In this document: positions 9,562-42,242 of the stretch, piece by piece
Numbering within the stretch: the stretch's first letter is position 1
How the letters are laid out: the number at the start of each line of letters is the position of its first letter
Source of the DNA: Gemmatimonadota bacterium
GTDB taxonomy: Bacteria > Gemmatimonadota > Gemmatimonadetes > Longimicrobiales > Gaopeijiaceae
Length of the DNA: 42,242 nucleotides
Assembly: GCA_040882465.1 (NCBI GenBank)
Contig: JBBEBG010000005.1
Location: 1 to 42,242, forward strand
Direction: 5' to 3'
Notes under the pieces: model-generated
Told to the model about the DNA's origin: nothing
What the model saw: only the letters and a program-made list of their open reading frames with translations
Database searches by the model: none
Program-made: the position numbers and the translations under genes

Positions 9562-12282
9562 GTGCCCGAAGAGACGAGCGAAGACCGAGGATCCGTCCCC
9601 TCCGGCGACCCCGACCGCTGGGGCGAAGCGCTCGTCGGATGGGTTACCCGCGAGATCGAGGGCACCGGCTCCTTTCCGCGCGGCATCGAGGCATGGATTG
9701 ACGAGCGGCTCGCCCGCCGCCTACTGAATCCCGCGCGTGCCGTCTTCGTCGCGCAACTTCTCTTCGTCGCAGTCGTCGTCGCCATCTCCTGGAGCCAGCT
9801 TCCCCCCGGGGCGCTCGCGGCGTGGGCGGCCATGCTCGTCGCTTCCGCCGCCATCCGCTCCGGTCTCCCCGGCTGGCTCGCGAGACAAGGGACCGGGGTC
9901 CGGGGATGCGTCGCCGCCTTCCAGTGGTCGGTCCTGATCTCGGGGCTGGTCTGGGGTGGGGGGATCGCATTTCTCGGACGAGGCCTTCCGATCGAGCGGC
10001 TCTTCCTGATCCTAGTCGCCCTGACCGGCATGGTCGCCGCCTCCGCGGTCACCCTCGCCCCCGATCCCGCGAGCTTTCGACGCTTCGAGATCCCTCTCGT
10101 CACGGGCCTGGTCATCGGCATCCTTTGGCACGGCCAGACCCAGGTCCACTTGCTCGGCGCGGGCCTGATGATTTTGTTCGGCGTGTGGGTGCAAACCCTC
10201 CTCCGGCAGAGTCACCGCGCGCTCCGCCACGAGCTCACCATCGCCGCGGATCTCAAGCACCACGACGAGAAGGCCGGGCGGGAGCGCGCCTTTCTAATTG
10301 CGCTCCTCCAATCCCTTCCCGACGCCGTCGTCGCGATGAAACGCGACGGTTGCGTCCTCGCACTCAACCGCGGATTCACCGAGACCTTCGGATGGGAGCC
10401 GGAAGAGGTCCTCGGCCACGATCTCTTCGAGCTCGCCGTCCCGGAGGAAGGCCGCGACGAGGCGCGGCGGGAAGTCCGGGAGCTTTTCGACGCGGGCGGG
10501 AGCGTTCGCGACACGCGCAGGCGTCGGAAGGACGGCTCGTTGATTCAGGTGCGCGTCCTCGCGAGCCCGATCGCCGGGCTCCACGACGTGGTCGCAATCC
10601 TGTACTCCGACATCTCCCGCCTCAAGGAGACGGAGTTGGCCCTGGAGCACGCGCGCGCGGCGGCGGAGCAAGCGAATCGGGCGAAGAGCGAGTTCCTCGC
10701 CACCATGAGCCATGAAATCCGGACCCCGATGAACGCGATCATCGGGATGGCGGAACTCCTCGCCGAGACCGATCTCTCGCAGACTCAGCGGGAGTACGTG
10801 CGCATCTTCACGACCGCGGGCGATACCCTCCTCACCCTCATCAATCAGATTCTGGATCTCTCGAAGATCGAGGCGGGACATTTCGAGTTGGACGAGCGCC
10901 CTTTCTCGGTGTGGGAGCTCGTCGAGCACACGGTGCAGCTTTTCGCCGTTCCCGCGCACGAGAAGGATGTCGAGCTGACCGCGCGGATCGATCCCGGGGT
11001 CCCGCGCCGCCTGGTCGGCGACGCGGACCGCCTCCGCCAGATCCTCGTGAACCTCCTCGGGAATGGGGTCAAGTTCACACGCGAGGGGGAGGTTTCCTTG
11101 AGCGTGAGCCGCTCCACCCGCCCTGCCGAAGGCGAGGAGGGCACGGACGTGGTCCTCCGGTTCGCGGTGGCCGACACGGGGCCGGGGATTCCGGAAGATC
11201 GGATGGAGGCCGTTTTCGAGAGATTTACCCAAGCTGACTCTTCCACCACGCGAGAGCATGGAGGATCCGGGTTGGGGCTGACGATTTCGTCCGCTCTCGT
11301 CGCGCTCATGCACGGGGAGATGGGCGTCCGTAGCCGCCTCGGTGAAGGGAGCACCTTTTATTTCACGGTGAGGCTGAAGGAGGCGGGCCCCGAGGTCCAG
11401 GGACCTAAGGCCCCGGAACGCCTTTCCTTTGAAGGGCTCCGCGCCCTCGTCGTGGACGACAACGCCACGAACCGGCTCGTCCTCACGGAGGTGCTGCGCG
11501 GCTGGGGCGCGACGCCGACCACCGCTGCGGGCGGACAGGAGGCCCTCGCCGAGCTCCGCCATGCGCGCGACTCGGGCCAGAAGTACGACCTCGTCCTTCT
11601 CGATGGACGTATGCCGGGAATCGATGGATTCGAGGTGGCCGAGCTGGTCCAGAAGGAGCGGGGCCTCGCGGCAGCCACCCTGATGATGCTGACTTCGGGA
11701 GGGGACCAGGCCGCCGAGATCGAACGGGCCCGAGCGGCGGGCATCCAGGCATATCTCGTGAAGCCGGTTCGGCGCGCCGAGCTCCGCGAGACGATCGGGC
11801 GGCTCCTGAGCCGAAGCGGGAGCGAGGCGGCTCTCCCGGTTGGAGCGACCGGCGTATCGAGTGCGCCCCTGCCGCGCACGGCCGGAGCAAAGATCCTTCT
11901 GGTCGAAGACACGGAGGAGAACCAGATCCTCATCCAGGCGTACCTCGGAGGATCTCCGCACAGCCTCCGGATCGTCGCGCGCGGCGACGAAGCCGTACGG
12001 ACCTACACCGGGGATCCCTCGGAGTACGACCTGATCTTCATGGACATCCAGATGCAGGGAATGGACGGCTACGAGGCGACCCGGCGCATCCGAAGCTGGG
12101 AGAAGTCGGAGGGCGTCCCCGCTGTTCCGATCGTTGCCCTGACGGCGCATGCGCTGGACGATGAGCGCCGCAAGACGCTCGAAGCGGGATGCGACGCTCA
12201 CCTCACGAAACCGATTCGAAAGGACGTCTTTCTCTCCGCCGTCGCGACGCATGCGAGGCCGGCCCCGCGGCCCGAGGGATGA
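9562..12282 (+). CDS. membrane-bound hybrid sensor histidine kinase with two receiver domains
   Basis: A 906-residue protein. Order: hydrophobic region with about six membrane segments (58-215); PAS domain (about 243-355, AMKRDGCVLALNRGFTETFG); HisKA with phospho-acceptor H384 in MSHEIRTPMNAIIGM; HATPase with NLLGNGVKF (N box), DTGPGIP (G1) and GGSGLGL (G2), about 485-605; receiver 1 (about 627-750, VVDDN, D681, K734 in LVKP); receiver 2 (about 777-895, D828 in FMDIQM, K884 in LTKP). There is no C-terminal HPt domain, so the phosphate must leave to a separate protein. The N box has Gly in place of the usual second Asn. The GTG start is least certain. It overlaps the DUF4105 gene by ATGA. Confidence 0.9.
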   Translation: MPEETSEDRGSVPSGDPDRWGEALVGWVTREIEGTGSFPRGIEAWIDERLARRLLNPARAVFVAQLLFVAVVVAISWSQLPPGALAAWAAMLVASAAIRSGLPGWLARQGTGVRGCVAAFQWSVLISGLVWGGGIAFLGRGLPIERLFLILVALTGMVAASAVTLAPDPASFRRFEIPLVTGLVIGILWHGQTQVHLLGAGLMILFGVWVQTLLRQSHRALRHELTIAADLKHHDEKAGRERAFLIALLQSLPDAVVAMKRDGCVLALNRGFTETFGWEPEEVLGHDLFELAVPEEGRDEARREVRELFDAGGSVRDTRRRRKDGSLIQVRVLASPIAGLHDVVAILYSDISRLKETELALEHARAAAEQANRAKSEFLATMSHEIRTPMNAIIGMAELLAETDLSQTQREYVRIFTTAGDTLLTLINQILDLSKIEAGHFELDERPFSVWELVEHTVQLFAVPAHEKDVELTARIDPGVPRRLVGDADRLRQILVNLLGNGVKFTREGEVSLSVSRSTRPAEGEEGTDVVLRFAVADTGPGIPEDRMEAVFERFTQADSSTTREHGGSGLGLTISSALVALMHGEMGVRSRLGEGSTFYFTVRLKEAGPEVQGPKAPERLSFEGLRALVVDDNATNRLVLTEVLRGWGATPTTAAGGQEALAELRHARDSGQKYDLVLLDGRMPGIDGFEVAELVQKERGLAAATLMMLTSGGDQAAEIERARAAGIQAYLVKPVRRAELRETIGRLLSRSGSEAALPVGATGVSSAPLPRTAGAKILLVEDTEENQILIQAYLGGSPHSLRIVARGDEAVRTYTGDPSEYDLIFMDIQMQGMDGYEATRRIRSWEKSEGVPAVPIVALTAHALDDERRKTLEAGCDAHLTKPIRKDVFLSAVATHARPAPRPEG

Positions 12283-13508
12283 GGCCTCTCCTGGTCGCGG
12301 CGGCGCTCGCCCTCGCGGCCGCCTCCCCGGGGATCGCGGGCGCCCAAGAGCCGCCGCCGGAGCCCCGCTACGAGGTCTTCCTCCTCACCATGGCCCAGGG
12401 AGCGGAAGTTTGGGAGCTCTTCGGACACAACGCCCTCCTCATCCGGGATCGCGCGACGGGAGAAGACCTCGCCTGGAACTGGGGGCTGTTCGACTTCGAG
12501 CAGGAGGCCTTCATTCCCCGCTTCCTACGCGGCACGATGGAGTACAGCATGGGTCCGGCACGGCTCGAACCCTTCCTCGCGGGATACGCGGCCGCGAACC
12601 GGACCGTCTTTGCGAACGAAGTCCTCCTCACCCAGGAGGATGCGGCCGCCCTCGATGCCTTCGTGCGGTGGAATTTTCAACCCGAAAACCGGAATTACCG
12701 CTACGACTACTTCCGGGACAATTGCTCCACGCGGCTGCGCGACGCGCTCGACGGCGTCCTCGGGGGGGCGATCTTCGCCGCGCTCGGGGATCGCCGGACG
12801 CCACACAGCTACCGATGGCACGTTCGCCGCCTCGTGCAGGATGACGTGTGGCTGGACCAGGGGATCTCGTTCATGTTCGGAACCGGAGTGGACCGGCCCC
12901 TGACCGCGTGGGAGACGGCCTTCCTCCCGGTGGAACTCCTGAAGCACCTCGAAGAGGTCCAACGGCCGGACGGCCAGGGTGGGATGCGCCCCCTCCTCGG
13001 CCCGCGCCAGGTCCTCTTCGAGGCCACGCGGCCGGCCGAGCCGGAGGCGCCGCCCGCATTTTCCTTCCTCTGGGTCGCCGCAGGGCTCGCCGCGGCGGGA
13101 GGAATCGGGTGGGTGGGAAGGCAGGCCTGGAGGCGGAAGCGGTGGGCGAAGGCCGGCCTCTTCGCGGTGGTCACCGTCTGGGGGCTCTTCTCAGGGATCC
13201 TGGGGCTCCTGCTCGTCCTTTTTTGGTTCTCGCACCACGTGTCCGTGCACTGGAACGGGAACCTCTTCCACCTGAGCCCCCTCGCCCTCGCGCTTCCCGT
13301 CCTCGTTCTCCGGGACCTTCGCGGAAAGGCTTGCGCTTCGGCGGGGGCCGGAGCGCGGCTCGCCCTTCTGATCGCGCTCCTCTCCGTCGGGGCCGCCGTC
13401 ATCCAACTGACGCCTCTTTTCGCGCAAGGGAACGCGGAGGTGATCGCTCTCGGCCTTCCGGTGAATCTGGCCCTCGCCTGGGTCCTCACTCGGTTCCCCG
13501 CCGAATGA
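12279..13508 (+). CDS. DUF4105 / Lnb-like periplasmic domain membrane protein
   Basis: A 409-residue exported protein. Residues 1-22 form a signal peptide (probable cleavage at IAGA-QE). Residues about 30-240 are a DUF4105 domain, with WELFGHNALLIRD (FGH 48-50), WNWGLFDF and YDYFRDNCSTRLRDAL (Cys149). About four or five membrane segments follow (about 261-409). The domain is related to Lnb, a lipoprotein N-acyltransferase, and the conserved His and Cys are the likely catalytic pair; acyl transfer here is inference. The ATG overlaps the kinase stop (ATGA), so the two are translationally coupled. An upstream in-frame ATG at 12189 would lie inside the kinase gene. The 3' end overlaps the convergent M20 gene by 23 bases. 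Confidence 0.8.
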   Translation: MRPLLVAAALALAAASPGIAGAQEPPPEPRYEVFLLTMAQGAEVWELFGHNALLIRDRATGEDLAWNWGLFDFEQEAFIPRFLRGTMEYSMGPARLEPFLAGYAAANRTVFANEVLLTQEDAAALDAFVRWNFQPENRNYRYDYFRDNCSTRLRDALDGVLGGAIFAALGDRRTPHSYRWHVRRLVQDDVWLDQGISFMFGTGVDRPLTAWETAFLPVELLKHLEEVQRPDGQGGMRPLLGPRQVLFEATRPAEPEAPPAFSFLWVAAGLAAAGGIGWVGRQAWRRKRWAKAGLFAVVTVWGLFSGILGLLLVLFWFSHHVSVHWNGNLFHLSPLALALPVLVLRDLRGKACASAGAGARLALLIALLSVGAAVIQLTPLFAQGNAEVIALGLPVNLALAWVLTRFPAE

Positions 13509-14940
13509 GCTCGCCGTAGAAGCGAATCATCCCCACATAGTCCGTCACCGGAATCCTCTCGTTCGCGCCCCGCAAGCTCGCGAGCGTGGCCGCATTCATT
13601 CGAAAGGGAACGAAGCGGTAGCTGTCCCGCGCAACCGCGGAGAAAGGGCGCACGTCCGTGACTCCGGGGACCGTGGCGGGGAGAACGACCAGGAGGTCGG
13701 GAAATACCGCGCGGGCCGCATCCCGGATACGAAGGAAGCCCTCGGTGTCCGTGGAGGAAATGGCGGACGGAGGGATCGGGGCCGCGCCGGCCGGCTCGGG
13801 GAGAAGCTCGATCTCGAGGTCCCCGAGGCGGGCCCAGATTTCCTCCAGGACCGCGTCCGGCGCATCCCAGGGCGCGATCCCCACACGAAGCCGGGCGGTC
13901 GCGTGGGACGGGAGCGCTCCGCGGTCCGCCTCCGCGCGGAGGAGGGTGGGCGCGGCGACCGTACGAAGGGTGGCGCCGAGCCAGGGATTCCCCGAGAGGG
14001 CGCGCGCGAGCGGACGCTCGAACAACCAGAGGTTCGCGGCGAGCATCCGCGTCCCCGGGTCCATGTGGGGGGCCAGGGCCAAAAAGAGCCGGCGGGTCGG
14101 GCCCTGGATCCTCGGCGTGAACCCCGGATCCTCGAGGCGGACGATCGCCTCCGCGATTCTCCCCGCCGCGGTCCCGCGCGGGGGCGCCGAGGCGGGCCCT
14201 CCCACTCCCCGCGCCGTGAGCCGGAGCGCGAGCGCCCCCTGTTCGGCCGTCCCGATCACGCCGATCGGCTCGGTGACGCCCGGTAAGAGCCCCTCGGCGA
14301 TCCCCCCGCCGTCGCCGAGGGCCCACAACGCGACGATTCCGCGCGACTCCAGGAGCGCGGCGACTTCCGAGAGGCCGCTCCCCTCCTCCTCCACGGGACC
14401 CCCGACCGCGACCATCAGGGTGCGGGCAGGATCGAAGCCCTCCGCGAGGAGGGCGTCCAATGCTTCGAAGATCGCGACGAGGGGTCCCCGCCCCGAAAGT
14501 GTTCCGCGACCCCACACGGCACCGTCCGCGAGCTCGCCGGAGAAGGGGGGGAAGCGCCACGCTTCCGCCCCCGGACCCGTCGGAGCGGGACCCATCCGGG
14601 CAACAAGGAGCACCGGCTCGAGCTCGGGATCCGTTCCACTCCAGGTGTAGAGGAAGGAGCTAGGAGCGACCGCCTCCCTCACGAGCGCCGCGTGGACCGC
14701 GGGAAAGGCGCTCGCGAGAAATTCGGGAAATCCGGGGGCCTCCGGGGTGGGTTCGGGTGGAATCCGGATCGCCACGGTGAGCCGGTCCAGCGCACGCGCC
14801 GCGTCGAAATCGAAGGGGTGAACCGCGACCTCCGAAAGAGTTTGTGGGCGCAGGAAGGCGGATCGAACGAAGAGAGTCGCGGTCAGGAGCCCCGAGACCA
14901 CGAGGAAGGCGAGGAGCGCCCGGAAGAGAAGGGTCTTCAT
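13486..14940 (-). CDS. M20-family peptidase-like protein with missing metal ligands (probable pseudoenzyme)
   Basis: A 484-residue protein with an N-terminal membrane anchor (LLFRALLAFLVVSGLLTATL). Its framework matches PM20D1/M20 carboxypeptidases: PFDFDAARALDRLTVAIRI, FLYTWSGTDPELEPVLLVAR, WRFPPFSGELADG, GRGTLSGRGPLVAIFEALD, and near the end PGVTDVRPFSAVARDSYRFVPF. In active members the first metal His and Asp sit in a GHxDVVP-like motif; here it is ARMGPAP (114-120). The bridging Asp of GRGTLDDK is replaced in GRGTLSGR (144-151). The GHDEE region reads GGPVEEEG, keeping only glutamates. The protein is therefore unlikely to bind the usual two zinc ions, yet the frame is open throughout. It follows the ATPase gene by ten bases. 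Confidence 0.75.
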   Translation of the reverse strand: MKTLLFRALLAFLVVSGLLTATLFVRSAFLRPQTLSEVAVHPFDFDAARALDRLTVAIRIPPEPTPEAPGFPEFLASAFPAVHAALVREAVAPSSFLYTWSGTDPELEPVLLVARMGPAPTGPGAEAWRFPPFSGELADGAVWGRGTLSGRGPLVAIFEALDALLAEGFDPARTLMVAVGGPVEEEGSGLSEVAALLESRGIVALWALGDGGGIAEGLLPGVTEPIGVIGTAEQGALALRLTARGVGGPASAPPRGTAAGRIAEAIVRLEDPGFTPRIQGPTRRLFLALAPHMDPGTRMLAANLWLFERPLARALSGNPWLGATLRTVAAPTLLRAEADRGALPSHATARLRVGIAPWDAPDAVLEEIWARLGDLEIELLPEPAGAAPIPPSAISSTDTEGFLRIRDAARAVFPDLLVVLPATVPGVTDVRPFSAVARDSYRFVPFRMNAATLASLRGANERIPVTDYVGMIRFYGELIRRGTE

Positions 14941-14950
14941 CGCGCGCAGT

Positions 14951-16450
14951 TTATCCGGAACCCATGAGCTGGGCCAGGTCCACAACCCTCGCGAGGGGCT
15001 CCCGCGCGAGGGTCCGGCGGAGTTCCTCGCTCCCCTCCCCTGCCAGGAAAAAGAGCGCCGCGCGCGCCTGCCGCCCGATCCCGTAACGGGTCTCCGCCAT
15101 CCGGCGGTTCATCTCGCGGGGGAGCTCCTCGAAGCGCATCTCCCAGTCCACCAGTCCGTAGCAGACCTGCCCGTTCGAGAGGCGGCCGGCAACGGGAAAG
15201 TCGGCTTCGGATCCCCAGAGGGCGCCGACCTCCCTCGCCGGTACCCCGAAGGCCGCCTCCGCATGGTCCGCGAGCCACCGCCGGGCTGCCTCTTCCATCC
15301 ATCCCTGAAGGTGCCGGCCGAGGGCGGGGCGGATCCGATCCCGCCAGACCGCCGGCGCACCCTCGCTTGCGATCAGGCTCCTATGCGGAAGGACCGAGCT
15401 GAACCAGAAGCCAAGGAAGGGATCGGAGAGCGCATAGCGGCGGCTCCGGCTCCCGGGGGCCGCATCGAGGGGAAGGTCCACGCGGACGAGTCCCTCCTCC
15501 TCGAGCTTCCCTAGGTACGGGGCGAGCTGCGACCCCGACTCGACACCGGAGGCGCGCGCAAGAATGCCCGACCAGTCCAGGGGACCGGCGGCGAGCGCGC
15601 GCAGGACGGAGGCGTAACGAGCGGGTCGCTGGAAGGTGGCCTCCAGGCGCCGCAGCGGCTCGTCGTGGAGGTCGCCCTGCGGTTTGAGGACCCTCCGCAC
15701 CACCATCTCGCCGAGGTCCTGGCGCGGCCCCCCCGGGCGGAGGTGTGCGGGGTGATCGCCGAGGATTGCCCAGCGGAGAAAAGCATCCCGGGGATCCCTC
15801 GCGCCGTGCCCCCACCCCGCGACGCGGTAGGGAAGCGGCGGGAGCTCCAGCTCGAGGTCCGCCGGGCCGAGCGTGCCCCTAGTTCCGGTCAGGGGCTCGA
15901 GCGTGCCCTTCGCGCGGGCGCAGAGGACGAGACGCAAGGGAATCCCGTGGGTACGCACCCCCTGCACCAGGTCGGATAGCTCCTGTACGAGCCGCCGATG
16001 GGAAGAAAGGAGGGTCTCCATCCCGTCGAGGGCCAGGGTGAAGGGCTTGCCCGAATCTTCGACGCGGTCGCGCAGCCCCATCAAAAGCGAGAGCCATCCG
16101 GCCTTCGTGATTCCCGTCGGAAGGACCCCGGGGCGCCGGGGGACCGGAGCCTCTCCGAGTTGTGCTCGAGCGAGCTCCTCCAGATCCGCCAGAAGATCTC
16201 CCTCGGTGAGTGGCGCCCCCTGGAAGTGGAGGGATTCGGAGCCCTTCAACGCCCTCTGGAGGAGGGCCGTCTTCCCGCGCCCGCGTGCACCGGTGATCGT
16301 GACGACGGCGGGTCCGGCCCCGGCGAGGAGCGCCACCAGCTTCCCGAGCTCCATCTCCCGCCCCAGGAGCGGCTCGGGCTCGGAGAGGCCACCGGCTTCG
16401 CGTCGGAGTCCGCCCCTTCGCGACCGCCCCCTCGCAGCACCCTTCGACAT
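14951..16450 (-). CDS. archaeal-type P-loop ATPase with DUF234-like C-terminus
   Basis: A 499-residue protein of the STAND-like archaeal ATPase group. Walker A is GARGRGKT (54-61) and Walker B is FTLALDG (137-143), where the usual acidic residue after Asp is Gly. A sensor-like LRLVLCARAKGTLEPL follows. A winged-helix region (about 275-335) leads to YALSDPFLGFWFSSVLP (339-355), a hallmark before the DUF234 nuclease-like domain. In that domain the expected Glu-x-Asp survives as EADFPV, but the ECKW motif reads GLVDWE, so nuclease activity is doubtful. The ATG at 16450 has a GGGTGGGGG ribosome site; an in-frame codon at 16495 lies in AT-rich promoter-like DNA. It heads an operon with the M20-like gene. 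Confidence 0.75.
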   Translation of the reverse strand: MSKGAARGRSRRGGLRREAGGLSEPEPLLGREMELGKLVALLAGAGPAVVTITGARGRGKTALLQRALKGSESLHFQGAPLTEGDLLADLEELARAQLGEAPVPRRPGVLPTGITKAGWLSLLMGLRDRVEDSGKPFTLALDGMETLLSSHRRLVQELSDLVQGVRTHGIPLRLVLCARAKGTLEPLTGTRGTLGPADLELELPPLPYRVAGWGHGARDPRDAFLRWAILGDHPAHLRPGGPRQDLGEMVVRRVLKPQGDLHDEPLRRLEATFQRPARYASVLRALAAGPLDWSGILARASGVESGSQLAPYLGKLEEEGLVRVDLPLDAAPGSRSRRYALSDPFLGFWFSSVLPHRSLIASEGAPAVWRDRIRPALGRHLQGWMEEAARRWLADHAEAAFGVPAREVGALWGSEADFPVAGRLSNGQVCYGLVDWEMRFEELPREMNRRMAETRYGIGRQARAALFFLAGEGSEELRRTLAREPLARVVDLAQLMGSG

Positions 16451-16464
16451 TCGACCCCCACCCT

Positions 16465-16510
16465 GAAGTAAGATAATTATTATTAGACTAATCATACTTG
16501 AGCTAATTTT
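16465..16510. promoter_or_regulatory. AT-rich divergent control region with ATTAG dyad
   Basis: This short stretch is strikingly AT-rich for its surroundings. It holds the dyad ATTAGACTAAT (16482-16492). On the minus strand, TATGAT (complement of 16491-16496) could be a -10 element for the ATPase/M20 operon. On the plus strand, TATACT at 16548-16553 with TTCTGA 17 bases upstream is a weak candidate promoter for amtB. The dyad could be an operator for either direction. Confidence 0.35.
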
Positions 16511-16620: not shown

Positions 16621-18045
16621 ATGCCGATCTCCACTCCGAGCCACAGCATCCTCGGAAAGTTTTCAACCCTCGGCCCACGACTCGCCGTCCTCGGAAGTCT
16701 CGGGCTCCTTCTCGTCACGCCGGGAGCCGCCTTCGCGCAGGACGCGGCCGAAAGCGCGATCTCCGGCGCGGACACGGCGTGGCTCCTTATCTCGGCCGCC
16801 CTCGTCCTCCTGATGACGCCCGGCCTCGCCTTTTTCTACGGCGGGCTAGTGAGCTCCCGAAACGCGCTCAACACGATGATGATGAGCTTCGTCGCGCTCG
16901 GCGTGGCGGGAGTCCTTTGGGCGCTCCTCGGGTACTCGCTCGCCTTCGGCGAGGGGAACGCCTTCATCGGCGACACTTCCATGGCCCTGTTGCGCGGCGT
17001 GGGGCTGGAAGTGAGTGGATCCATCCCTCACATCCTCTTCATGGCTTTCCAGGCCACCTTCGCGATCATCACCGCCGCACTGATCTCGGGAGCGCTGATC
17101 GGGCGCATGCGGTTCGGCGCCTACATGCTCTTCATCGCGGCCTGGGGGCTCCTGGTGTACGCTCCGGTCGCCCACTGGGTGTGGGGTGGGGGTTGGCTGA
17201 GCGGTCTGGGAGCGTTGGACTTCGCCGGAGGCGCGGTAGTCCATGTGAATGCGGGCGCCGCGGCCGTCGTCGCGGCGCTCGTGCTCGGAAGCCGAAAGGA
17301 CTTCGGACGCCAGGCCTTCCTCCCGCACAACGTCCCCTTCGTCCTCCTCGGCGCCGGGCTCCTCTGGTTCGGATGGTTCGGCTTCAACGGCGGCAGCGCG
17401 CTCGCCGCGAACGAGATCGCGGCCCTCGCCTTCGTGAACACCATGCTCGCGCCGGCGGCGGCCCTCGTCGTCTGGGCGCTCCTCGATCATTTTCGGACCG
17501 GAAAGATCACGGCGGTCGGCATCGCGACGGGAATCGTCGTCGGCCTCGTGGCGATCACTCCCGCGGCGGGCTTCATCTCACCCGTTTCGGCGTTGCTTCT
17601 CGGGGCCATCGCGGCGCTGCCGAGTTATTTCGCGCTCCAGTGGCGCGCGCAGAGCAGGCTCGACGACTCGCTCGACGTCTTCGCCGCTCACGGGGTCGGC
17701 GGGATCACGGGCGCCATCCTCACGGGCGTCTTCGCGGACTCGACGGTGAACGGCTCGGCCGACGGACTCCTCTTCGGGAATCCGGGCGCCGTCGGGGTGC
17801 AGGCCCTCTCGGTCTTCGCCGTCCTCGTTTTCAGCGGGAGCATGACCTTCATCATCCTGAAGCTGATCGGACTCATCGTGCCGCTTCGCGGGAGCTCCCG
17901 CGAAGAGGGCGTCGGCATGGACATCCTCAATCATGGCGAAGAGGCCTACGCGAGCGGCGACGGGGCGATTCTGATCCTCGATGAAGAGATCAACGGATTC
18001 GGAGCGCCCGAAGGGACAGGCGCCTCCAGGTCACACGCGTCCTAG
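16621..18045 (+). CDS. amtB: ammonium transporter
   Basis: A 474-residue Amt-family channel that moves ammonium into the cell. Residues 1-39 form a signal peptide ending AFA-QDAAE, common in Amt proteins. Eleven or so membrane segments follow. The signature lies in DFAGGAVVHVNAGAAAVVAAL, giving the first pore His; the second is in FAAHGVGGITGAIL. The gate phenylalanines are in the FMAFQATFAIITAAL segment. It is followed after 25 bases by a PII gene, the classical amtB-glnK pairing, so its activity is probably blocked by PII when nitrogen is plentiful. It opens a four-gene nitrogen assimilation block. Confidence 0.95.
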   Translation: MPISTPSHSILGKFSTLGPRLAVLGSLGLLLVTPGAAFAQDAAESAISGADTAWLLISAALVLLMTPGLAFFYGGLVSSRNALNTMMMSFVALGVAGVLWALLGYSLAFGEGNAFIGDTSMALLRGVGLEVSGSIPHILFMAFQATFAIITAALISGALIGRMRFGAYMLFIAAWGLLVYAPVAHWVWGGGWLSGLGALDFAGGAVVHVNAGAAAVVAALVLGSRKDFGRQAFLPHNVPFVLLGAGLLWFGWFGFNGGSALAANEIAALAFVNTMLAPAAALVVWALLDHFRTGKITAVGIATGIVVGLVAITPAAGFISPVSALLLGAIAALPSYFALQWRAQSRLDDSLDVFAAHGVGGITGAILTGVFADSTVNGSADGLLFGNPGAVGVQALSVFAVLVFSGSMTFIILKLIGLIVPLRGSSREEGVGMDILNHGEEAYASGDGAILILDEEINGFGAPEGTGASRSHAS

Positions 18046-18070: not shown

Positions 18071-18433
18071 ATGAAGCTGATCCGAGCCATCATCCGACCC
18101 GAGAAGCTGAACGAGGTGTTGAAGGCGCTCTTCCAAGCGGAGGTGCGCGGTATCACGGTCTCACGCGTTCAGGGCCATGGGGGCGAGACCTCCTCCGTGG
18201 CGACGTACCGGGGGACTTCGGTCATGATGGAGCTCACCGAAAAAGTGATGCTCGACATCGGCGTCTCCGAAGGGTTCACGGAGACGGTCGTGAATGCGGT
18301 CCTGAGCTCGGCGCGCACCGGGGAGGTCGGGGATGGCAAGATCTTCGTCATTCCGGTCGAGCAGGTCCATCGGATTCGGACCGGAGAGCGAGACACAGCG
18401 GCGGTCACCCCCGTGGCCGTGACCGCGGGTTAG
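18071..18433 (+). CDS. glnK: PII nitrogen regulatory protein lacking the uridylylation tyrosine
   Basis: A 120-residue PII protein, a trimeric sensor of 2-oxoglutarate and ATP/ADP. It aligns without gaps to E. coli GlnB from [16 protein letters not shown] to [20 protein letters not shown]. Within the T-loop (residues 37-55) the sequence is [15 protein letters not shown]. Tyr46 is kept but position 51, the uridylylated Tyr of proteobacterial PII, is Val, and Gln39, which helps bind Mg-ATP-2-oxoglutarate, is Glu. Control by uridylylation at Tyr51 is therefore excluded. Position after amtB suggests it gates the transporter. The symbol reflects position; it may be a separate PII subfamily. An SD-like GGAGGGAAG precedes the ATG. 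Confidence 0.9.
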
Positions 18434-18527: not shown

Positions 18528-19940
18528 ATGACCCCGGAACAGTTTTTCAAGTTCGCGAAGACGAACAAAGCCACCATGGTGGACCTGAAGTTCACCGACC
18601 TGCTCGGGACGTGGCAGCACTGCACGTACCCGATTGAAACTTGGGACGAAGGGACTTTCGACGAGGGCGTCGGATTCGACGGATCCTCCATCCGTGGGTG
18701 GCAGGCGATCAACCAGTCCGACATGCTCGCGATCCCGGACGCTTCCACCGCGAAGATCGATCCCTTCTTCGCCGAGCCGACGGTGAGCGTCATCGCGAAC
18801 ATCGCGGACCCGGAGACGCTCGAGGACTACACGCGCGACCCGCGCCACGTGGCGCGAAAGGCGCTCGAACACTTGAAGAAGTCGAAGATCGCCGACACTT
18901 GCTTCGTCGGTCCCGAGCCGGAATTCTTCATCTTCGACCAGGTGCGTTACGAGCAGACGCAGAACCGCGGCTTCTACGAGATCGACTCGGTGGAAGGAGC
19001 CTGGAACACGGCCCGTTTCGAGGAGCCGAACCTCGGCTACAAGCCCAGCTACAAGGGTGGGTACTTCCCCGTTTCGCCAACCGACACGTACCACGACCTC
19101 CGGACCGAGATGGTCCTCGCGATGCAGAAGGTCGGGATCGTCGTCGAGGCACACCACCACGAAGTCGGCACCGGTGGACAGTGTGAGATCGACATGAAGT
19201 TCTCGCCGCTTCTGCAGATGGCCGATCAGTTCATGTGGTTCAAGTACATCATCAAGAATGTTGCGAAACGGCATGGAAAGACGGTCACCTTCATGCCGAA
19301 GCCCATCTTCCAGGACAATGGGAGCGGCATGCACACCCATATGTCGCTCTGGAAGGGCGGGAAACCTCTCTTCGCCGGGAAGGAGTACGCGGGGTTGAGC
19401 CAGATGGCGCTCTACGCGATCGGCGGGCTCCTCAAGCACGCGAAGGCGATTCTGGCCTTCGCGGCTCCGACGTCGAATTCGTATCGCCGATTGGTCCCCG
19501 GGTACGAGGCGCCCGTGAACCTCGCCCTCTCCAAGCGAAATCGGTCCGCCTCGGTTCGGATTCCGATGTACTCGCCGAGCCCGAAGTCGAAGCGTCTGGA
19601 GTTCCGTTGCCCCGACCCGAGCTGCAACGGGTACCTCACCTTCTCCGCCATGCTGATGGCGCTCATGGACGGGATCAACAACAAGATCGAGCCCGGCAAG
19701 CCGCTCGATCGCGACATCTATCACATGACGAAGGCGGAGCTCGACAAGACACCGAAGACACCGGCAAGCCTTGAAGAGTCGCTCGAAGCGCTCAAGAAGG
19801 ACCATGCCTTCCTCACACAGGGCGGCGTCTTCACCGATGATCTGATCCAGACCTGGATCGATTACAAGATGGAGAACGAGGTCGAGGCGCTCCGCCTCCG
19901 GCCCCATCCGCACGAGTTCTTCCTCTATTACGACAACTGA
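18528..19940 (+). CDS. glnA: glutamine synthetase type I
   Basis: A 470-residue dodecameric GSI that makes glutamine from glutamate, ammonia and ATP. Motifs: [20 protein letters not shown] near the start, [35 protein letters not shown], the ATP-binding [18 protein letters not shown], and [22 protein letters not shown] near 390 keeps a Tyr where enteric GSI-beta enzymes are adenylylated. The ATG at 18528 follows a strong GGAGGAGGAAGG site. It lies 94 bases after the PII gene and is followed by two strong hairpins before glnN. Confidence 0.95.
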
Positions 19941-37426: not shown

Positions 37427-38236
37427 TTGTCAATTGCATCCCATTGGGGATGGGTTTCCGTCATCTCGACAACGGCGGGTTCCTCCATGACGCTCGCCTT
37501 CTGCGCGGATCCACGGTTTCGCGCCCACGTTGAGGTACTCACGCCTCCTCTCGCCGTGACGGACGATTGGGATACTTTCGAGCACACTGCGCACCGGGCC
37601 GCCACCCTCATCGTGGTGACCGAATCACTTCGCGATTGGTCCCATTTGGACTCCATGCGGCGGCTCAGGGCGAGACTGCCCGGGGTCCCCTGGATACTCC
37701 TTACAGGCCGGAGCGAGAGGAATCTTCTCGAACTTCGGCGGTTCGAGGTCGAGGAAGTTGTCTTTACGACCGAACTCGAACGTCTGGAGGGTGCGATCCG
37801 CGGCGTCCGTGTCCGGAAAGTACGCTCGACTCTTGCGAAGTTCGTGAGCGAGCACGAGGGATTCACGCGATACAAGAAGAGACTTCTTCGAGCCCTTTTC
37901 GAGGCCAATGAGCCGCCCAGGAGCTGCTCCGAGTGGGGTAAACTCGCGCACGTTGCGCCGGATACGGTCAAGTATCACTTCAGACATGTGAAGGACCGGG
38001 GCGGTCCACCGGCTTCATTCCTCCTAAACGCCAACCTGGTTCTCGCCGCTCTCGAGTCGGCGCCGGCCGCCCGCTCTTGGAGCGAACTTTCCGCTGTCGT
38101 GAATGTCGATTCTCGGCGGCTTCATCGGGCCGGGACCATGCTCACGCAGAACGCAGGGCAATCTCCCGCGGCACCGTTGCCCTCCATCCAACAGGTGGCG
38201 AAGGGCCTCGGGCAGTCGCTCAGCAGCGCGCCGTAA
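37427..38236 (+). CDS. putative transcriptional regulator with receiver-like N-terminus and two helix-turn-helix segments
   Basis: About 269 residues. I do not recognise a named family. Residues 10-125 alternate strands and helices like a receiver or pseudo-receiver (VSVISTTAG, TLIVVTESLRDWSHLD, VPWILLTGRSERN, EVVFTTELERLEGAI), but the phospho-acceptor pattern is not clear. The C-terminal half has two helix-turn-helix candidates: SEWGKLAHVAPDTVKYHFRHV (about 168-189) and SWSELSAVVNVDSRRLHRAG (about 217-237). The start is uncertain: a TTG at 37427 has a G-rich ribosome site and keeps the first strand; ATG at 37487 would lose it. It lies upstream of the DsbA/peptide genes and may control them. 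Confidence 0.6.
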   Translation: MSIASHWGWVSVISTTAGSSMTLAFCADPRFRAHVEVLTPPLAVTDDWDTFEHTAHRAATLIVVTESLRDWSHLDSMRRLRARLPGVPWILLTGRSERNLLELRRFEVEEVVFTTELERLEGAIRGVRVRKVRSTLAKFVSEHEGFTRYKKRLLRALFEANEPPRSCSEWGKLAHVAPDTVKYHFRHVKDRGGPPASFLLNANLVLAALESAPAARSWSELSAVVNVDSRRLHRAGTMLTQNAGQSPAAPLPSIQQVAKGLGQSLSSAP

Positions 38237-38334
38237 ACGGCTCGTTCGGTTGCGGGTCGAATTCACTACACGATTCGGTCGGAACGGCTACACGACCTGG
38301 TTTGGAGAATCTGGGCGGAAGTTCAAGATTGGTA

Positions 38335-38355
38335 GCGGACCTCCATGAGGTCCGC
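38335..38355 (+). terminator. perfect 9-bp hairpin after the regulator gene
   Basis: GCGGACCTC (38335-38343) pairs with GAGGTCCGC (38347-38355) around a CAT loop. It lies about 100 bases after the regulator stop and 130 before the first DsbA-like gene, so it probably separates two transcripts. No T-run follows. Confidence 0.55.
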
Positions 38356-38483
38356 CCGAGAGTCTTCGGCGCGCACCAGCTCAGCCGCCTGCCTTCGCCA
38401 AGCTTCACCGGCGATGAAAGCAGGCCCGCATTCCGAGACCTGTTAGGGCCCAGTATCAGCTCCTGCTGCGGAGGGAGTTGGCC

Positions 38484-39011
38484 ATGGAGAAAGCGTCGTC
38501 GACGGTATGTGCAATGACAGTAATCACCATCTGCGCCGTCCTTCTCGTGGGAGTTCTTCTGAGGCGGGAGTTCTTCGGGGACGCGGAGGTGGGCATCGCG
38601 CCAGGCGCCCCCGAGTACGTCGAGGGTTGGGAGGATATGCTTGGCGAAAAGCTCACGGTCGCCTCATCAGCGGGCACGGCGCAAGTCTTCGCGTTTTTGG
38701 GTTTCCAGTGCCCGTATTGCCCCGACTTCCACGAGAATACCTTGTGGGCCCTCGAGGAAGAGTTTGGTGATGCATTGAAGGTCACCTTTCTCCACCTGCC
38801 GTTGGACATTCATCCCTTCGCGGACGCTGCGGCGATTGCAGCAGGGTGCACCGCCGAACAGGGGCAGTTCAGACAGTTCGCGGACGCCTCGTTCGCGATG
38901 CAGGATTCGATAGGCGTTCAGGACTGGATCGCACTTGCGAATGATGCAGGAATTCCCGACGTCACAATTCACACAGAATGCATGCATCTTGTGCCGGATG
39001 CGCTAACGTAG
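38484..39011 (+). CDS. membrane-anchored DsbA-like thioredoxin-fold protein, C-terminally truncated
   Basis: A 175-residue protein with an N-terminal membrane anchor (about 9-28) and a thioredoxin-like core. The active site is CPYC (76-79) in FLGFQCPYCPDFHENT, followed by the DsbA-type helical region (LHLPLDIHPFADAAAIAAGC). The ATG has GGAGGGAG six bases upstream. It stops soon after AGIPDVTIHTECM. The sibling at 39526 continues there for some 85 residues, including the cis-Pro loop GTPTLVING and the last strands of the fold. No such sequence follows here in any frame. The protein thus lacks a key half of the active-site surface and may be non-functional or specialised. Confidence 0.72.
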   Translation: MEKASSTVCAMTVITICAVLLVGVLLRREFFGDAEVGIAPGAPEYVEGWEDMLGEKLTVASSAGTAQVFAFLGFQCPYCPDFHENTLWALEEEFGDALKVTFLHLPLDIHPFADAAAIAAGCTAEQGQFRQFADASFAMQDSIGVQDWIALANDAGIPDVTIHTECMHLVPDALT

Positions 39012-39087
39012 TGTAGGAGCGAGCTCGGTAGGACTTGAAAGGGTGGACAGGGGTGCCGCGTCGCCCGCAACGGGCATCCCGCTCTTG

Positions 39088-39093
39088 TTGACA
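39088..39093 (+). promoter_or_regulatory. candidate -35 element of the peptide gene
   Basis: A perfect TTGACA lies 58 bases before the peptide ATG. The matching -10 is poor (TCATTC with an 18-base spacer), so the promoter assignment is weak. Its position between the first DsbA-like gene and the peptide allows separate transcription of the peptide. Confidence 0.3.
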
Positions 39094-39151
39094 GGTATAT
39101 CAAAGGCCTGCTCATTCTCATGCACCGTACTCTCGCGGAGGCAATCTCACA

Positions 39152-39412
39152 ATGACAAAGCACACTCGCCTTAAGATCATCGCGTTTGCCGCCCTGGCGC
39201 TGGCATCCGGGGCGTACTCGAACCTCTTGGGCTCACCCCCCCGGTTAGAGGGCGAATTCGATCTATGCTGGGTTGCGTGCCCCGATAATGTGACGAAACA
39301 GGCTGCGTGCGAAGAACAATCCGGAGCTTGGAACGGTTCTCCTTGCTGGCATTCATGCTCGGGACCCGAAGGATGGCGGCCGATCGGCATTACCTGTATC
39401 TACGTAGGATGA
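39152..39412 (+). CDS. small exported cysteine-rich peptide with two CWxxC motifs
   Basis: An 86-residue protein of no family I know. Residues 1-23 look like a Sec signal peptide (basic MTKHTRLK, then IIAFAALALASGAYS), without a lipobox. The mature part of about 60 residues has six Cys at 39, 43, 53, 65, 69 and 82. They form two CX3C units, CWVAC and CWHSC, each with Trp after the first Cys, plus two single Cys, enough for three disulfides. The ATG has GGAGG ten bases upstream and overlaps the TGA of an 11-codon upstream frame. It lies between two membrane-anchored DsbA-like genes that could oxidise it. Toxin, bacteriocin, signal or structural peptide are all possible. Confidence 0.62.
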   Translation: MTKHTRLKIIAFAALALASGAYSNLLGSPPRLEGEFDLCWVACPDNVTKQAACEEQSGAWNGSPCWHSCSGPEGWRPIGITCIYVG

Positions 39413-39525
39413 CGACTCACCGCCCTTAGATGGCCGAGGCGCCCTGTCCACCCACACTTTGTTTGAGCGGTCGTGACGCTGTGCATACGCGGCAGTGACA
39501 CTCACCTTCATTGAGGTAACAGACG

Positions 39526-40248
39526 ATGATCGACCGCCTCGCTTCCATTGCGCTTATTGTCGCAGCCCTAGTTTTTTCAGTCACGCTGATACACGGCGAA
39601 TTCTTTTCTGCAGCGACCCGCACTGACCTGTATCAGCCCAAATACATTGAGGAATGGTCATCCGCGCTTGGCGCCTCTGTGAATTCTGCCAGTCCGGACG
39701 CGCCTGTACAAATTATGGCCTTTGTCGACTATCAATGCCCCGCTTGCGCTGTCGCCGATTCTGTGATCCGCCAACTCAGACGGGCATATCCCACAGAGGT
39801 CGCAGTTCATTACTTACATTATCCCTTGCCGGCTCACCCGCAAGCGCGAGTGGCCGCCCTTGCCGTCGAGTGCGCCATGGAATTCCAGCGCTTTGATGAG
39901 ATGGCTCACATTCTTTACAGCGGCCAGGAATGGTTCGGCGTAAAGCGTTGGGATGAGTATGCCGATGACGCCGGAATCGCAGACATAGCACAATTTAATG
40001 TTTGCATGGCGGAGGCAGGCCACATTGCTCGTATTGAGGCAGGTCTTCGTTGGGGAGAGACGTTTGCAGTTTTAGGTACTCCTACGCTGGTCATAAACGG
40101 GTGGATGTTTTTCGGAGGGCTTACCTATGAGCAGCTCGATACTCTGGTTTCAGCGGTACGCTCGGAAGAATTGCGCTCAGATCTGTCGCCCGAAGACGTG
40201 TCGGCCATTGTTGGCCACTCGTTTCGCGGTCCCACTTCCGCCATGTAG
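39526..40248 (+). CDS. membrane-anchored DsbA-like thiol oxidoreductase
   Basis: A 240-residue protein with an N-terminal anchor (SIALIVAALVFSVTLIHG, about 7-24) and a complete DsbA-type thioredoxin fold facing the periplasm or outside. The active site is CPAC (71-74) in FVDYQCPACAVADSV, a helical insertion spans about 105-170, and the cis-Pro loop is GTPTLVINGW (P186). It is a homologue of the truncated protein at 38484: both share the anchor, the EYVEGWED/KYIEEWSS linker and the catalytic region. The start has GAGGTAA upstream. Base composition is much lower in G+C than in the left part of the window. It probably catalyses disulfide formation in exported proteins, plausibly the adjacent Cys-rich peptide. 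Confidence 0.85.
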   Translation: MIDRLASIALIVAALVFSVTLIHGEFFSAATRTDLYQPKYIEEWSSALGASVNSASPDAPVQIMAFVDYQCPACAVADSVIRQLRRAYPTEVAVHYLHYPLPAHPQARVAALAVECAMEFQRFDEMAHILYSGQEWFGVKRWDEYADDAGIADIAQFNVCMAEAGHIARIEAGLRWGETFAVLGTPTLVINGWMFFGGLTYEQLDTLVSAVRSEELRSDLSPEDVSAIVGHSFRGPTSAM

Positions 40249-40297
40249 GGATGACTTTGGGCTTCCGAGCACCACTTTCCTAAGCAATTCTACGCAC

Positions 40298-41452
40298 TTG
40301 CTGACGCGTCTTGCTTTCGTTGGGCTCACTTGCTCGGGGTCACTCGGCTATTTCTTCGCTTCCGTCCATGCTCAAGATCGCTCCAGCTCAACGTGGGCAC
40401 TCGATATTGATTGGCGTATCGGGGGACGCTCTGACGCCGCTTATGAGGTGTTTGGTGGATTCCCGTTGAATCTGACCATCGGACCGCACGGCGAAGTCCT
40501 AGTGGCTGATCCTCAGCTGGGCCATATTCATATGTTTGATTCCTCCGGGCGCTTTGTGCGCGCTATTGGCTCCCGAGGCGAGGGACCGGGTGAGTTTGAC
40601 GTTCCGCTCGCCATGGGCTGGGACGCCAATAGCCACCTGTGGGTGTCCGATGCGCGAGGCTATTACCATGTTTTTGATTCCACAGGTGTACCGGTCGAAA
40701 GCCACTCCCACGGCTTTGTCACTCCAGCCCGAATCACAGGCCAGGGCGCATTTGACGCCGAGGGCAACTTCTTGGATGAAACTGAACTCCGTCCTCAGGG
40801 GTCCTCACGGATAACCGTCGCTCTCATCAGGGTAGCACCAGACGGTAACGTGATAGATACGCTCCCCCCCATGGTCGGTCCTCGGTTCGATCTGCGCGAC
40901 CGACCGCTAATGGCCTTTCCGGGCGCTCCGATTAGGGGCTTTGGACGTAACGCACCCGAATCTGTCCTGGCGCTCGCGCGCTATGTACCTCAATTGATCT
41001 TTACTGTGGCTCCGGATGGCACACTTTGGCTGGCGTACTCGAATCGCTATCAGCTCATCCAACGCACACTCGTGGGCGACACCATTCAAGTGATTGATGC
41101 TTCACATCGACCCGTACCCCCCTTATCGCCAGCGGATGAGCGCATATTGCGTGAGGGTTTGCTCCTCGTTGACGTCGAACGGGCTGAATTCGCCTATGGG
41201 AGGCAGCTCCTTCGCTTCATACACGTCCTAGCCGACGGTCATGTGATGATTGGATTGGAGGACGATCCAGGAAGAGGCGTCTCGACGATCGACATTCTGA
41301 CGTCGCACGGAGACTATGAGGGTTCCCTTCTGCTGCCCGTACCCCTTGATGCGCAATCTCAAATTGCATCTCGTGGTGATACCATTGTGTTTGTTACGCG
41401 CGACGCCCTCGAAGTCGCGTCAGTGGTTCACGCGTCGATTCGAAAGCCTTGA
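40298..41452 (+). CDS. secreted six-bladed beta-propeller protein (NHL/6-bladed type)
   Basis: About 384 residues. The TTG at 40298 opens a signal peptide (LTRLAFVGLTCSGSLGYFF, cleavage likely at VHA-QD); no clear ribosome site is visible. In-frame codons reach back into the upstream gene, but their translation there is not signal-like. The mature protein has propeller-blade repeats: NLTIGPHGEVLVADPQLGHI, MFDSSGRFVRAIGSRGEGPG and LWVSDARGYYHVFDSTG. GEGPGEF is typical of 6-bladed propellers common in Gemmatimonadota and Bacteroidota. These proteins bind ligands or partners outside the cell; the target is unknown. It follows the DsbA-like gene by 49 bases. Confidence 0.75.
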   Translation: MLTRLAFVGLTCSGSLGYFFASVHAQDRSSSTWALDIDWRIGGRSDAAYEVFGGFPLNLTIGPHGEVLVADPQLGHIHMFDSSGRFVRAIGSRGEGPGEFDVPLAMGWDANSHLWVSDARGYYHVFDSTGVPVESHSHGFVTPARITGQGAFDAEGNFLDETELRPQGSSRITVALIRVAPDGNVIDTLPPMVGPRFDLRDRPLMAFPGAPIRGFGRNAPESVLALARYVPQLIFTVAPDGTLWLAYSNRYQLIQRTLVGDTIQVIDASHRPVPPLSPADERILREGLLLVDVERAEFAYGRQLLRFIHVLADGHVMIGLEDDPGRGVSTIDILTSHGDYEGSLLLPVPLDAQSQIASRGDTIVFVTRDALEVASVVHASIRKP

Positions 41453-41454
41453 TC

Positions 41455-42242
41455 ATGCGCACGAGTCGCGTGGTGTCCTTCTTCAGTGTTTTGGTTAGTC
41501 TTGCGGCTTCCTTGTTCGCCACCAGATCGGCCACCACCGCACAGGAACCACAACTGGTGATCACTCCGGTTTTGGAGTTGGCTTCCTCCGAAACGGTCTT
41601 TGCTTACGCCCGTGTTTCTCCAGACGGCACGAAGGCGGTGTTTACATTGCAAGACCGCGAGCAAGCGTCGATGGCCCTCCATGTGGTGGATTTGTCAAGT
41701 GAAAGGCGTCTGTTTGTGGAGCCGGGTATCGATGGCTATTGGTCTCCGGAAGGCGATAGGGTGATTTACCGAAGCGGAATGCCCGGAGCAGGTGTCAGCA
41801 TTCTTCATATGAACACCGGCTTCGTTAGTCGCCGCATTGGACCAGAGTCACTTGGTGACTACCCGAGTTGGGGCTTACTTGACGGACGCGACGTCATCTT
41901 GACGATTGACGGAGAGTACTATTTTCGCCGGGGCGATATCGCTGAGGCCGATGCGTTGCCGATGGAGGCTTGTCCCGATATTGGAGTGGGCGATCGGCCA
42001 TTGCTTTCTAAAGACGGTACGCGGGTGTCTGTTTTTGTTAACGGCTCCGTGGTCGTTCGCAATTTGATGGGATGCGACGAAGTGTTTTTTACAGGCGAGC
42101 TGGGCGCCAAGGCCGACTTTTCTTTCGACGGTAGATACATCGCTTTTCATTCACCACGATTGGATGGATTCGGATACGAGATCAAAATCGTCGACCTCGA
42201 GGCGCGCACCGTGCGAACACTTAGCGACTTGGAAGGTTCTAG
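41455..42242 (+). CDS. secreted PD40/TolB-like beta-propeller protein, truncated by the window edge
   Basis: An open frame of at least 262 codons starts two bases after the previous stop and runs off the right edge. It opens MRTSRVVSFFSVLVSLAASL with a signal peptide cleaved near TTA-QEP. The rest shows PD40/WD40-like units: FAYARVSPDGTKAVFTLQD, GYWSPEGDRVIYRSG, PSWGLLDGRDVIL, SFDGRYIAFHS. These match TolB-type propellers. The C-terminal part is missing, so a fused catalytic domain (as in dipeptidyl peptidase-like proteins) cannot be excluded. Its close spacing suggests translation coupled to the upstream propeller gene. Confidence 0.72.
   Translation, partial: MRTSRVVSFFSVLVSLAASLFATRSATTAQEPQLVITPVLELASSETVFAYARVSPDGTKAVFTLQDREQASMALHVVDLSSERRLFVEPGIDGYWSPEGDRVIYRSGMPGAGVSILHMNTGFVSRRIGPESLGDYPSWGLLDGRDVILTIDGEYYFRRGDIAEADALPMEACPDIGVGDRPLLSKDGTRVSVFVNGSVVVRNLMGCDEVFFTGELGAKADFSFDGRYIAFHSPRLDGFGYEIKIVDLEARTVRTLSDLEGS

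Follow-up and report, generated by a model that had tools for sequence, protein, structure and literature searches.

The closest described relatives of the protein considered here, an ATPase encoded in a stretch of 42,242 nucleotides of Gemmatimonadota DNA (hereafter the window), are the PDC-S27 or DUF234-ATPase_2 proteins (PF03008 + PF01637). PDC-S27 is described as an ATPase fused to a PD-(D/E)XK member, and most candidates of this kind await validation (PMC12988326). These proteins resemble the clade of the window ATPase in their P-loop module, winged helix and DUF234 domain and in the 15-bp tandem repeats upstream of their genes, and they form its sister group in our tree. They differ from the window clade, which is tied to one metabolic locus and in which the nuclease Glu and Lys are gone, as are mostly the nuclease Asp and usually the Walker B Glu; the window protein, P0001, also falls under the Pfam cut-offs of both DUF234 and ATPase_2. 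Against the PADLOC profile of PDC-S27 (PDLC04984), which comes without a given cut-off, P0001 gives a match of E 4.6e-9 over residues 229-352 only, whereas its sisters L152 and L235 reach about 1e-45 over about three quarters of the protein.

Other systems share single aspects with this locus. Archaeal Orc1/Cdc6 proteins, which bind origin repeats, have the ATPase and winged-helix fold in common with P0001 (Z 15.2 to 2qby on DNA), whereas P0001 has an extra DUF234-like domain, a promoter location and no origin context. GlnR differs from P0001 in being a small MerR-type protein. PMC9249791 describes it as a DNA-binding repressor that is encoded with glutamine synthetase and controls nitrogen homeostasis, and this circuit resembles the one proposed below in that a DNA-binding regulator is encoded with glutamine synthetase. 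In mycobacteria, the regulator IniR has an AAA+ module likened to SSO1545, which is the second-best structure for P0001, and a MalT-like sensor domain that answers trehalose (PMC5760070), whereas P0001, in a nitrogen-assimilation locus, combines a winged helix with a dead nuclease domain. A similar ATPase-nuclease architecture is reported for DUF1703 in PMC1913061; PMC4858521, taken up as a DUF234 paper, was set aside because it concerns DUF2341 instead. Among the literature matches listed, we found no described regulator of glutamine synthetase type III (GSIII) in Gemmatimonadota, no account of repeats or operators of DUF234 genes and none of an ATPase linked to GSIII, and DUF234 as a whole word in a single paper, within a search scope that left out most subscription papers and all bioRxiv preprints.

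The features of the locus are collected in Table 1. At the far end of the window, positions 38001-42000 have a GC content of 0.56-0.59, compared with about 0.62-0.72 elsewhere in the window, and are perhaps acquired DNA.

Table 1. Features of the ATPase locus in the window, with the evidence for each assignment.
Feature	Position	Strand	Basis
M20-like pseudoenzyme, downstream of ATPase	13486..14940	-	next to ATPase in 1 of 58 relatives, the window genome
ATPase / winged-helix / dead-nuclease protein P0001, 499 aa	14951..16450	-	AAA_16 above cut-off; AF2 model
DUF234-like domain, PD-(D/E)XK fold, about residues 380-498	14957..15313	-	structure matches; below Pfam DUF234 cut-off
Lost ExK nuclease motif position, Leu-Val-Asp, residues 433-435	15146..15154	-	motif comparison with relatives
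Winged-helix domain, about residues 262-342	15425..15667	-	AF2 C-terminal model and structure matches
Walker B, residues 137-143, FTLALDG; Gly in place of Glu	16022..16042	-	sequence motif
Walker A, residues 54-61, GARGRGKT	16268..16291	-	sequence motif
Candidate operator, three 9-mers, 15-bp spacing	16468..16509	-	upstream-region comparison
Unit 3 of candidate operator, TTATCTTAC	16468-16476	-	
Unit 2 of candidate operator, TTAGTCTAA	16483-16491	-	
Unit 1 of candidate operator, TTAGCTCAA	16498-16506	-	
amtB, ammonium transporter, first gene divergent from ATPase	16621..18045	+	PF00909 E 1e-117
glnK, P-II protein	18071..18433	+	PF00543 E 3.3e-25
glnA, glutamine synthetase (Gln-synt_N, Gln-synt_C)	18528..19940	+	PF00120, PF03951
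GSIII, glutamine synthetase type III, P0003	20081..22279	+	GSIII_N PF12437 E 3.1e-70

The open reading frame of P0001 begins MSKGAARG and its translation start is likely at 16450; a second in-frame ATG is open at 16495, 45 bases further upstream, and would, if used, place two of the three operator units inside the coding region. The first-pass annotation had noted that the Walker B Asp is followed by Gly and that the DUF234 ECKW-like motif reads GLVDWE. Both observations hold, the Walker B context being FTLALDGMET (Asp142, then Gly143, with Glu145 three residues past the Asp) and the DUF234 motif reading QVCYGLVDWE in place of the GECKWW of nuclease-intact relatives. P0001 scores over the Pfam cut-off for AAA_16 (PF13191; 33.1 bits, cut-off 32.6) and under those for ATPase_2 (PF01637; 19.9 bits, cut-off 33.2), which the nuclease-intact sisters pass, and DUF234 (PF03008; 19.7 bits, curated cut-off 22.5), for which the sisters L070, L152 and L153 score 62.1, 53.7 and 47.8 bits, respectively. 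The DUF234 profile found no match anywhere in the window's genome (G000) at E 0.001 or over its cut-off. STAND regulators of the MalT/LuxR type differ from P0001 in their C-terminal LuxR-type helix-turn-helix, which was absent from the Pfam matches of P0001 up to E 1, and a match to the NCBIfam profile AbsR2 is confined to residues 16-83.

The AlphaFold2 model of P0001 has a mean pLDDT of 89.4. For its N-terminal two thirds, the best structural match is 2qen, a Walker-type ATPase of P. abyssi (Z 19.3), followed by SSO1545 (2fna, Z 18.3) and Orc1/Cdc6 on origin DNA (2qby). Folded alone, the C-terminal half (pLDDT 90.7) splits into a winged helix and a PD-(D/E)XK-like domain. Residues 262-361 match 2qen (Z 9.0), BigR (8.4), TtgV on its operator (2xro, 8.2) and other regulators at about 8, a middling value in a range that the structure tool calls possibly a common arrangement; the sequence profile also matches MarR-family 3zpl (E 0.0068). 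The DUF234-like domain matches AF1548 (Z 10.1, rmsd 2.5, 107 aligned) and 2vld (Z 9.9), followed by Can2 (Z 8.5) and Card1 and MspJI (both Z 7.9), while Foldseek alone gave nothing under E 0.001 for the C-terminal half (best E 3.2e-3). According to the model, the C-terminal domain has the PD-(D/E)XK core fold without the catalytic D and (D/E)xK.

It had also been proposed in the first-pass annotation that P0001 forms an operon with the M20-like gene downstream, as a sensing or scaffold pair of proteins with eroded active sites. The two genes are indeed on the same strand with a gap of ten bases (14941-14950), and the M20-like protein is as degenerate as was claimed: ARMGPAP stands for GHxDVVP, GTLSGR replaces a GAxDDK-type motif and PVEEEG replaces the DEE motif of intact homologues. 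The coupling itself found no support under the annotation's own criterion of adjacency. Among 58 genomes with relatives of the ATPase the two genes are adjacent in one, G000, and the maps of 20 other ATPase loci, which span 7.8 to 16 kb apiece, contain no gene called as an M20 homologue, so coupling was rejected. In this comparison with the 58 relatives, six genomes have a close M20 homologue (E < 1e-40). Besides G000, G010 and G017 carry the homologue and a clade ATPase on separate contigs, G032 has an equally eroded M20 gene with no ATPase match at E 0.001, and G057 and G051 have only distant ATPase paralogues (best E about 1e-18). Adjacency confined to G000, an eroded M20 gene without the ATPase in G032 and one on another contig in G017 together make a functional pair of the two proteins highly improbable, despite their spacing and shared erosion. 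A sensing role for the ATPase is still possible with a different partner, since its conserved divergent neighbour is GSIII or amtB-glnK-glnA. As to the M20 pseudoenzyme, L033 (G032) and L036 (G017) are equally eroded and the relatives in G057, G051 and G010 have intact motifs; because eroded and intact close relatives coexist, it forms a separate small lineage that is degenerating. The gene at 12189-13508, which converges on the M20 gene, encodes an Lnb_N periplasmic and transmembrane protein.

The conserved partner of the ATPase is nitrogen assimilation, not the M20 gene. We searched 154 genomes of the order with separate profiles for the ATPase and for GSIII, and 58 genomes were found to hold the ATPase clade or its nearest relatives (matches down to E 2.2e-73); outside this set were the truncated sister-like G103:C135 and G006:C49 (GECKWW intact) and distant paralogues, and second partial ATPase matches in G106 and G109 were excluded from the count. 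ATPase and GSIII lie head to head on one contig in 51 of the 58, at a median match distance of 183 bp (less than 500 bp in 48 of the 51). In four further genomes (G016, G001, G104 and G113) the locus is truncated, the contig breaking off ahead of or within GSIII or near the start of the ATPase, and the two genes are on different contigs in three (G034, G151 and G152). Gene maps of the 20 other ATPase loci had GSIII called head to head in 17. In the window the divergent gene order is amtB-glnK-glnA-GSIII, and the same amtB-glnK-glnA block lies between ATPase and GSIII in G015; in G001 it precedes a fragment of GSIII at the edge of the contig, and in G016 the closest nitrogen gene called is glnA. 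GSIII is present in 104 of the 154 genomes, and many GSIII genes are without the ATPase. GSIII can therefore do without it, as the ATPase match is missing for some GSIII genes of the same family and even of the same genus (g26). Across 395 genomes sampled from the phylum, G034 (1.8e-111) and G151 (6.4e-110), both unlinked, gave the strongest matches beyond the window's family.

A different regulator occupies this position in family f3 of the same order, where an Lrp/AsnC gene (PF01037) lies upstream of GSIII and co-directional with it in two of two loci tested (L167, L176); L168, L170 and L177 have a similar arrangement, judged by eye. Like the window ATPase it is a DNA-binding-type regulator adjoining GSIII, but it is an unrelated protein and is co-directional with GSIII. 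This suggests that the regulator post next to GSIII has been filled independently by unrelated proteins.

Erosion of the nuclease is complete across the GSIII-linked clade. In P0001 the catalytic D, E and K of PD-(D/E)XK are replaced by P, L and D, respectively. None of the 53 members that reach the nuclease motif (G095 and G109 are truncated before it) keeps the Lys of ExK, and the catalytic Asp is Pro in 37 of them. A Glu directly after the Walker B Asp position is found in 6 of 55 members, and Walker A GK[ST] is intact in 31 and lost in 24. Since the same motifs are lost across the clade, the erosion in the window is not chance; with Walker A gone from 24 of the 55, ATP binding cannot be a clade-wide requirement. 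Members with a destroyed Walker A include G026, G022, G012, G072, G075, G077, G078, G082 and G118; because this motif is destroyed too, some GSIII-linked ATPases are pseudo-ATPases as well as pseudo-nucleases. The three unlinked proteins (G034, G151 and G152) retain GRRRVGKS, LDEFPY and GECKWW, and ECKW together with LDEFPY is kept in none of the 53 readable linked or contig-cut proteins. In a tree of 80 proteins, the 53 eroded ones form one clade (support 0.917); its sister group, in which every protein has GECKW, consists of L070, L152, L153 and two proteins from rhizobial plasmids. Because the eroded and linked clade is sister to a nuclease-intact group, loss of the nuclease coincides with recruitment to the GSIII locus.

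An AT-rich stretch lies upstream of nearly every clade ATPase, in genomes that are GC-rich; within this survey the start of L072 is misplaced and L080 is a truncated relative. The element has the consensus TTagcATAA-N6-TTAcGCTAA, after which comes a third, weaker unit at the same 15-bp spacing. The pattern TTAnnnTAA, chosen after the sequences had been seen, occurs twice at period 15 with at least 10 of 12 letters in 37 of 58 upstream regions (three unlinked sisters included), versus 0.2 expected from dinucleotide shuffles, and other periods from 9 to 27 reach at most 21 of the 58; the loci in these element tests are not independent, because close relatives are included. A 40-bp model of the element (R1) was run against 25 whole genomes, and all 19 matches lay upstream of the ATPase. 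Matches were found in 16 of 20 genomes with a clade ATPase and in 0 of 5 others, among them G034 with its intact sister; R1 had been built from the sites of 15 of the 16 matched genomes, whose matches are thus by construction, and the site of G022 was not in the model. R1 missed G009, G026, G027 and G078, although the G027 site was in the model. At E up to 5, R1 found no site other than at the ATPase promoter, so a genome-wide regulon has no support at the sensitivity of a model that missed 4 of 20 known loci.

With a site matrix, 52 of 55 clade loci score at least 22, whereas 20 regions upstream of GSIII genes that have no ATPase lack the element; their best score is 11.8, and 18 of them are negative. 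The single-strand scan missed L075, L079 and L155 (4.7, -14.4 and 3.1); a scan of both strands recovered the sites of L075 and L079, and its scores exceeded those of at least 99 percent of block shuffles in all 55 clade loci, which are also the training loci. Trained on the linked clade alone, the matrix found sites upstream of five of five nuclease-intact sisters (0.000 to 0.003 of block shuffles), namely L070, L152, L153, Mesorhizobium L235 and Rhizobium L236, with no GSIII in the stretch read; two of these sites are on rhizobial plasmids and so in another phylum. Of the other 12 plasmid DUF234 genes scanned with the same matrix, Haloferax L240 alone reached the level of the sister sites. 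Because nuclease-intact sisters without GSIII carry sites, the operator core ATTA-N3-TAAT probably predates the GSIII link, which argues that the element belongs to the ATPase. The element is conserved across the clade and co-inherited with the protein. An unbiased repeat score gave 12.4 of 24 (z 8.2) at period 15 for the linked clade, barely above the 12.2 (z 5.1, all multiples of three raised) of ordinary genes because the repeats have strongly diverged; GSIII upstream regions without the ATPase gave z 0.4 at this period (19 regions).

Tandem repeats, though of other sequence, also adjoin the starts of unlinked DUF234 homologues in the phylum (27 regions, z 11.3 and 9.2 at 15 and 16 bp). After two duplicates and two regions with truncated starts were dropped, 7 of the 23 distinct regions that remained had their best period at 15 and 9 had it at 16. 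The spacing of 15 or 16 bp gave a prediction that we tested on DUF234 genes of plasmids. Indeed, z was 12.0 at period 15 and less than 3 at all other spacings in a first set of 14 genes, which came from Alphaproteobacteria, Rhodothermota, Deinococcota, haloarchaea, Fusobacteriota, Bacteroidota, Actinomycetota and Thermodesulfobacteriota. A second set of 12 genes, hand-picked and not random, for which the statistic had been fixed beforehand, gave z 15.2 at period 15 and at most 3.0 elsewhere. Together these are 26 of 152 matching plasmid records, and the haloarchaeal genes among them are not mutually independent. Period 15 was the unique best in 19 of the 26 (10 of 12 haloarchaeal and 9 of 14 bacterial genes) versus 15 of 254 control genes, and at least 17 of 24 identities were reached by 16 of the 26 versus none of the 254, the controls being genes of Gemmatimonadota loci and not of plasmids. 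The seven plasmid genes without a unique best of 15 include L244 and L256 (best 16) and L251 (15 and 14 tied). The operator rule of 15-bp repeats thus seems to hold for much of the DUF234 family.

Nine unlinked DUF234 loci have a best spacing of 16 bp (L022, L023, L024, L026, L028, L216, L227, L228 and L233), and where their motif was read it is of the xVK type, for example EVKW, SVKW or AVKW. Some plasmid DUF234 genes have parA/parB or orc1/cdc6 nearby, as in L248 (Parabacteroides), L255 (Halarchaeum) and L254 (Natronococcus); together with the iteron-like repeats, these neighbours might hint at a role in plasmid maintenance.

We consider it reasonably probable, from these comparisons of sequences, that P0001 is a self-regulating ATPase which binds DNA in a sequence-specific manner, controls the divergent nitrogen operon and was domesticated from a nuclease-active, PDC-S27-like DUF234 ancestor. 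That ancestor would have had the same operator on its own promoter, its nuclease activity being lost on recruitment to the GSIII locus. We infer DNA binding, the direction of control and the signal or ligand as follows. The winged helix of P0001 would bind the TTAnnnTAA-like units that stand three in a row, at 15-bp steps, in the promoter region common to both genes, with several subunits binding cooperatively, one per 15 bp. Oligomerisation on the repeats would probably be set by the P-loop module, although ATP is not needed in some members, given the loss of Walker A. The nuclease-dead DUF234 domain may have been retained as a structural or a ligand- or partner-binding module. Because the element lies between both genes and near the ATPase start, its occupancy should repress the ATPase promoter and probably both promoters. 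P0001 would therefore most likely repress its own gene and the nitrogen operon, that is amtB-glnK-glnA-GSIII in the window and GSIII alone in most relatives, and be released under nitrogen limitation, possibly via its ATP/ADP state or contact with GlnK or glutamine synthetase. Candidate signals are a nucleotide, GlnK, glutamine synthetase or a ligand of the dead nuclease domain.

The repeats might instead serve self-regulation only, with a post-translational role of P0001 in nitrogen metabolism, for example as an assembly or inhibitory partner of GSIII or GlnK. Nuclease-intact relatives without a GSIII neighbour carry repeats on their own promoters, so autoregulation alone is enough to explain the element, and a conserved pairing with one enzyme would fit a protein-protein role as well. 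What speaks against this is the identity of the adjoining gene: amtB borders the element in the window, G015 and G001, and glnA is the nearest nitrogen gene called in G016, GSIII lying farther off or outside the stretch in these loci, so that divergence from a nitrogen promoter, rather than contact with GSIII, is what has been conserved. We therefore regard this explanation as unlikely. The ATPase need not bind DNA at all if the AT-rich element serves as a core promoter or is recognised by a different nitrogen regulator. The position of the element near the ATPase start does overlap the location where a promoter is required, but the element tracks the ATPase and not GSIII, being absent from the 20 GSIII regions without the ATPase and present upstream of five sister ATPases without GSIII, two of them in another phylum; moreover, the 15-bp spacing is kept while the sequence changes between subfamilies, which is unexpected of a promoter. 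This makes such a reading rather improbable.

It could also be supposed that P0001 is still a defence protein of the PDC-S27 type which lies beside GSIII by chance and kills or signals without a nuclease, as its weak match to the PADLOC profile and the strong matches of its intact sisters would allow. Linkage to one locus in 51 genomes (and four more cut by contig ends) and the full loss of the nuclease residues are both unlike a mobile defence gene, and the defence function of most PDC candidates is itself pending validation (PMC12988326); we hold this to be very improbable. The reading of P0001 as a DNA-binding regulator of the nitrogen operon is thus preferred.

To conclude, the sequence evidence for linkage, erosion and the element is strong, and what the window probably encodes is a regulator domesticated for nitrogen assimilation, rather than two paired dead enzymes. 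The ATPase is likely an undescribed switch for nitrogen use, and at this one locus the protein, its candidate operator and its proposed target can all be named. It would also be a clean case of a defence-like nuclease turned metabolic regulator. At the level of the family, an uncharacterised and widespread group of candidate defence genes is tied to a DNA signature, repeats 15 bp apart on their own promoters, which spans several bacterial phyla and haloarchaea and predicts how much of the family contacts DNA. There is perhaps an even chance that DUF234/PDC-S27 proteins of bacteria and archaea in general are self-recognising ATPases that assemble head to tail on such repeats, many of them as autoregulated switches, and that one Gemmatimonadota family lost its nuclease and became a dedicated switch for nitrogen assimilation. 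If true, many DUF234 genes now counted as candidate defence genes would be, or would also be, autoregulated DNA-bound switches.
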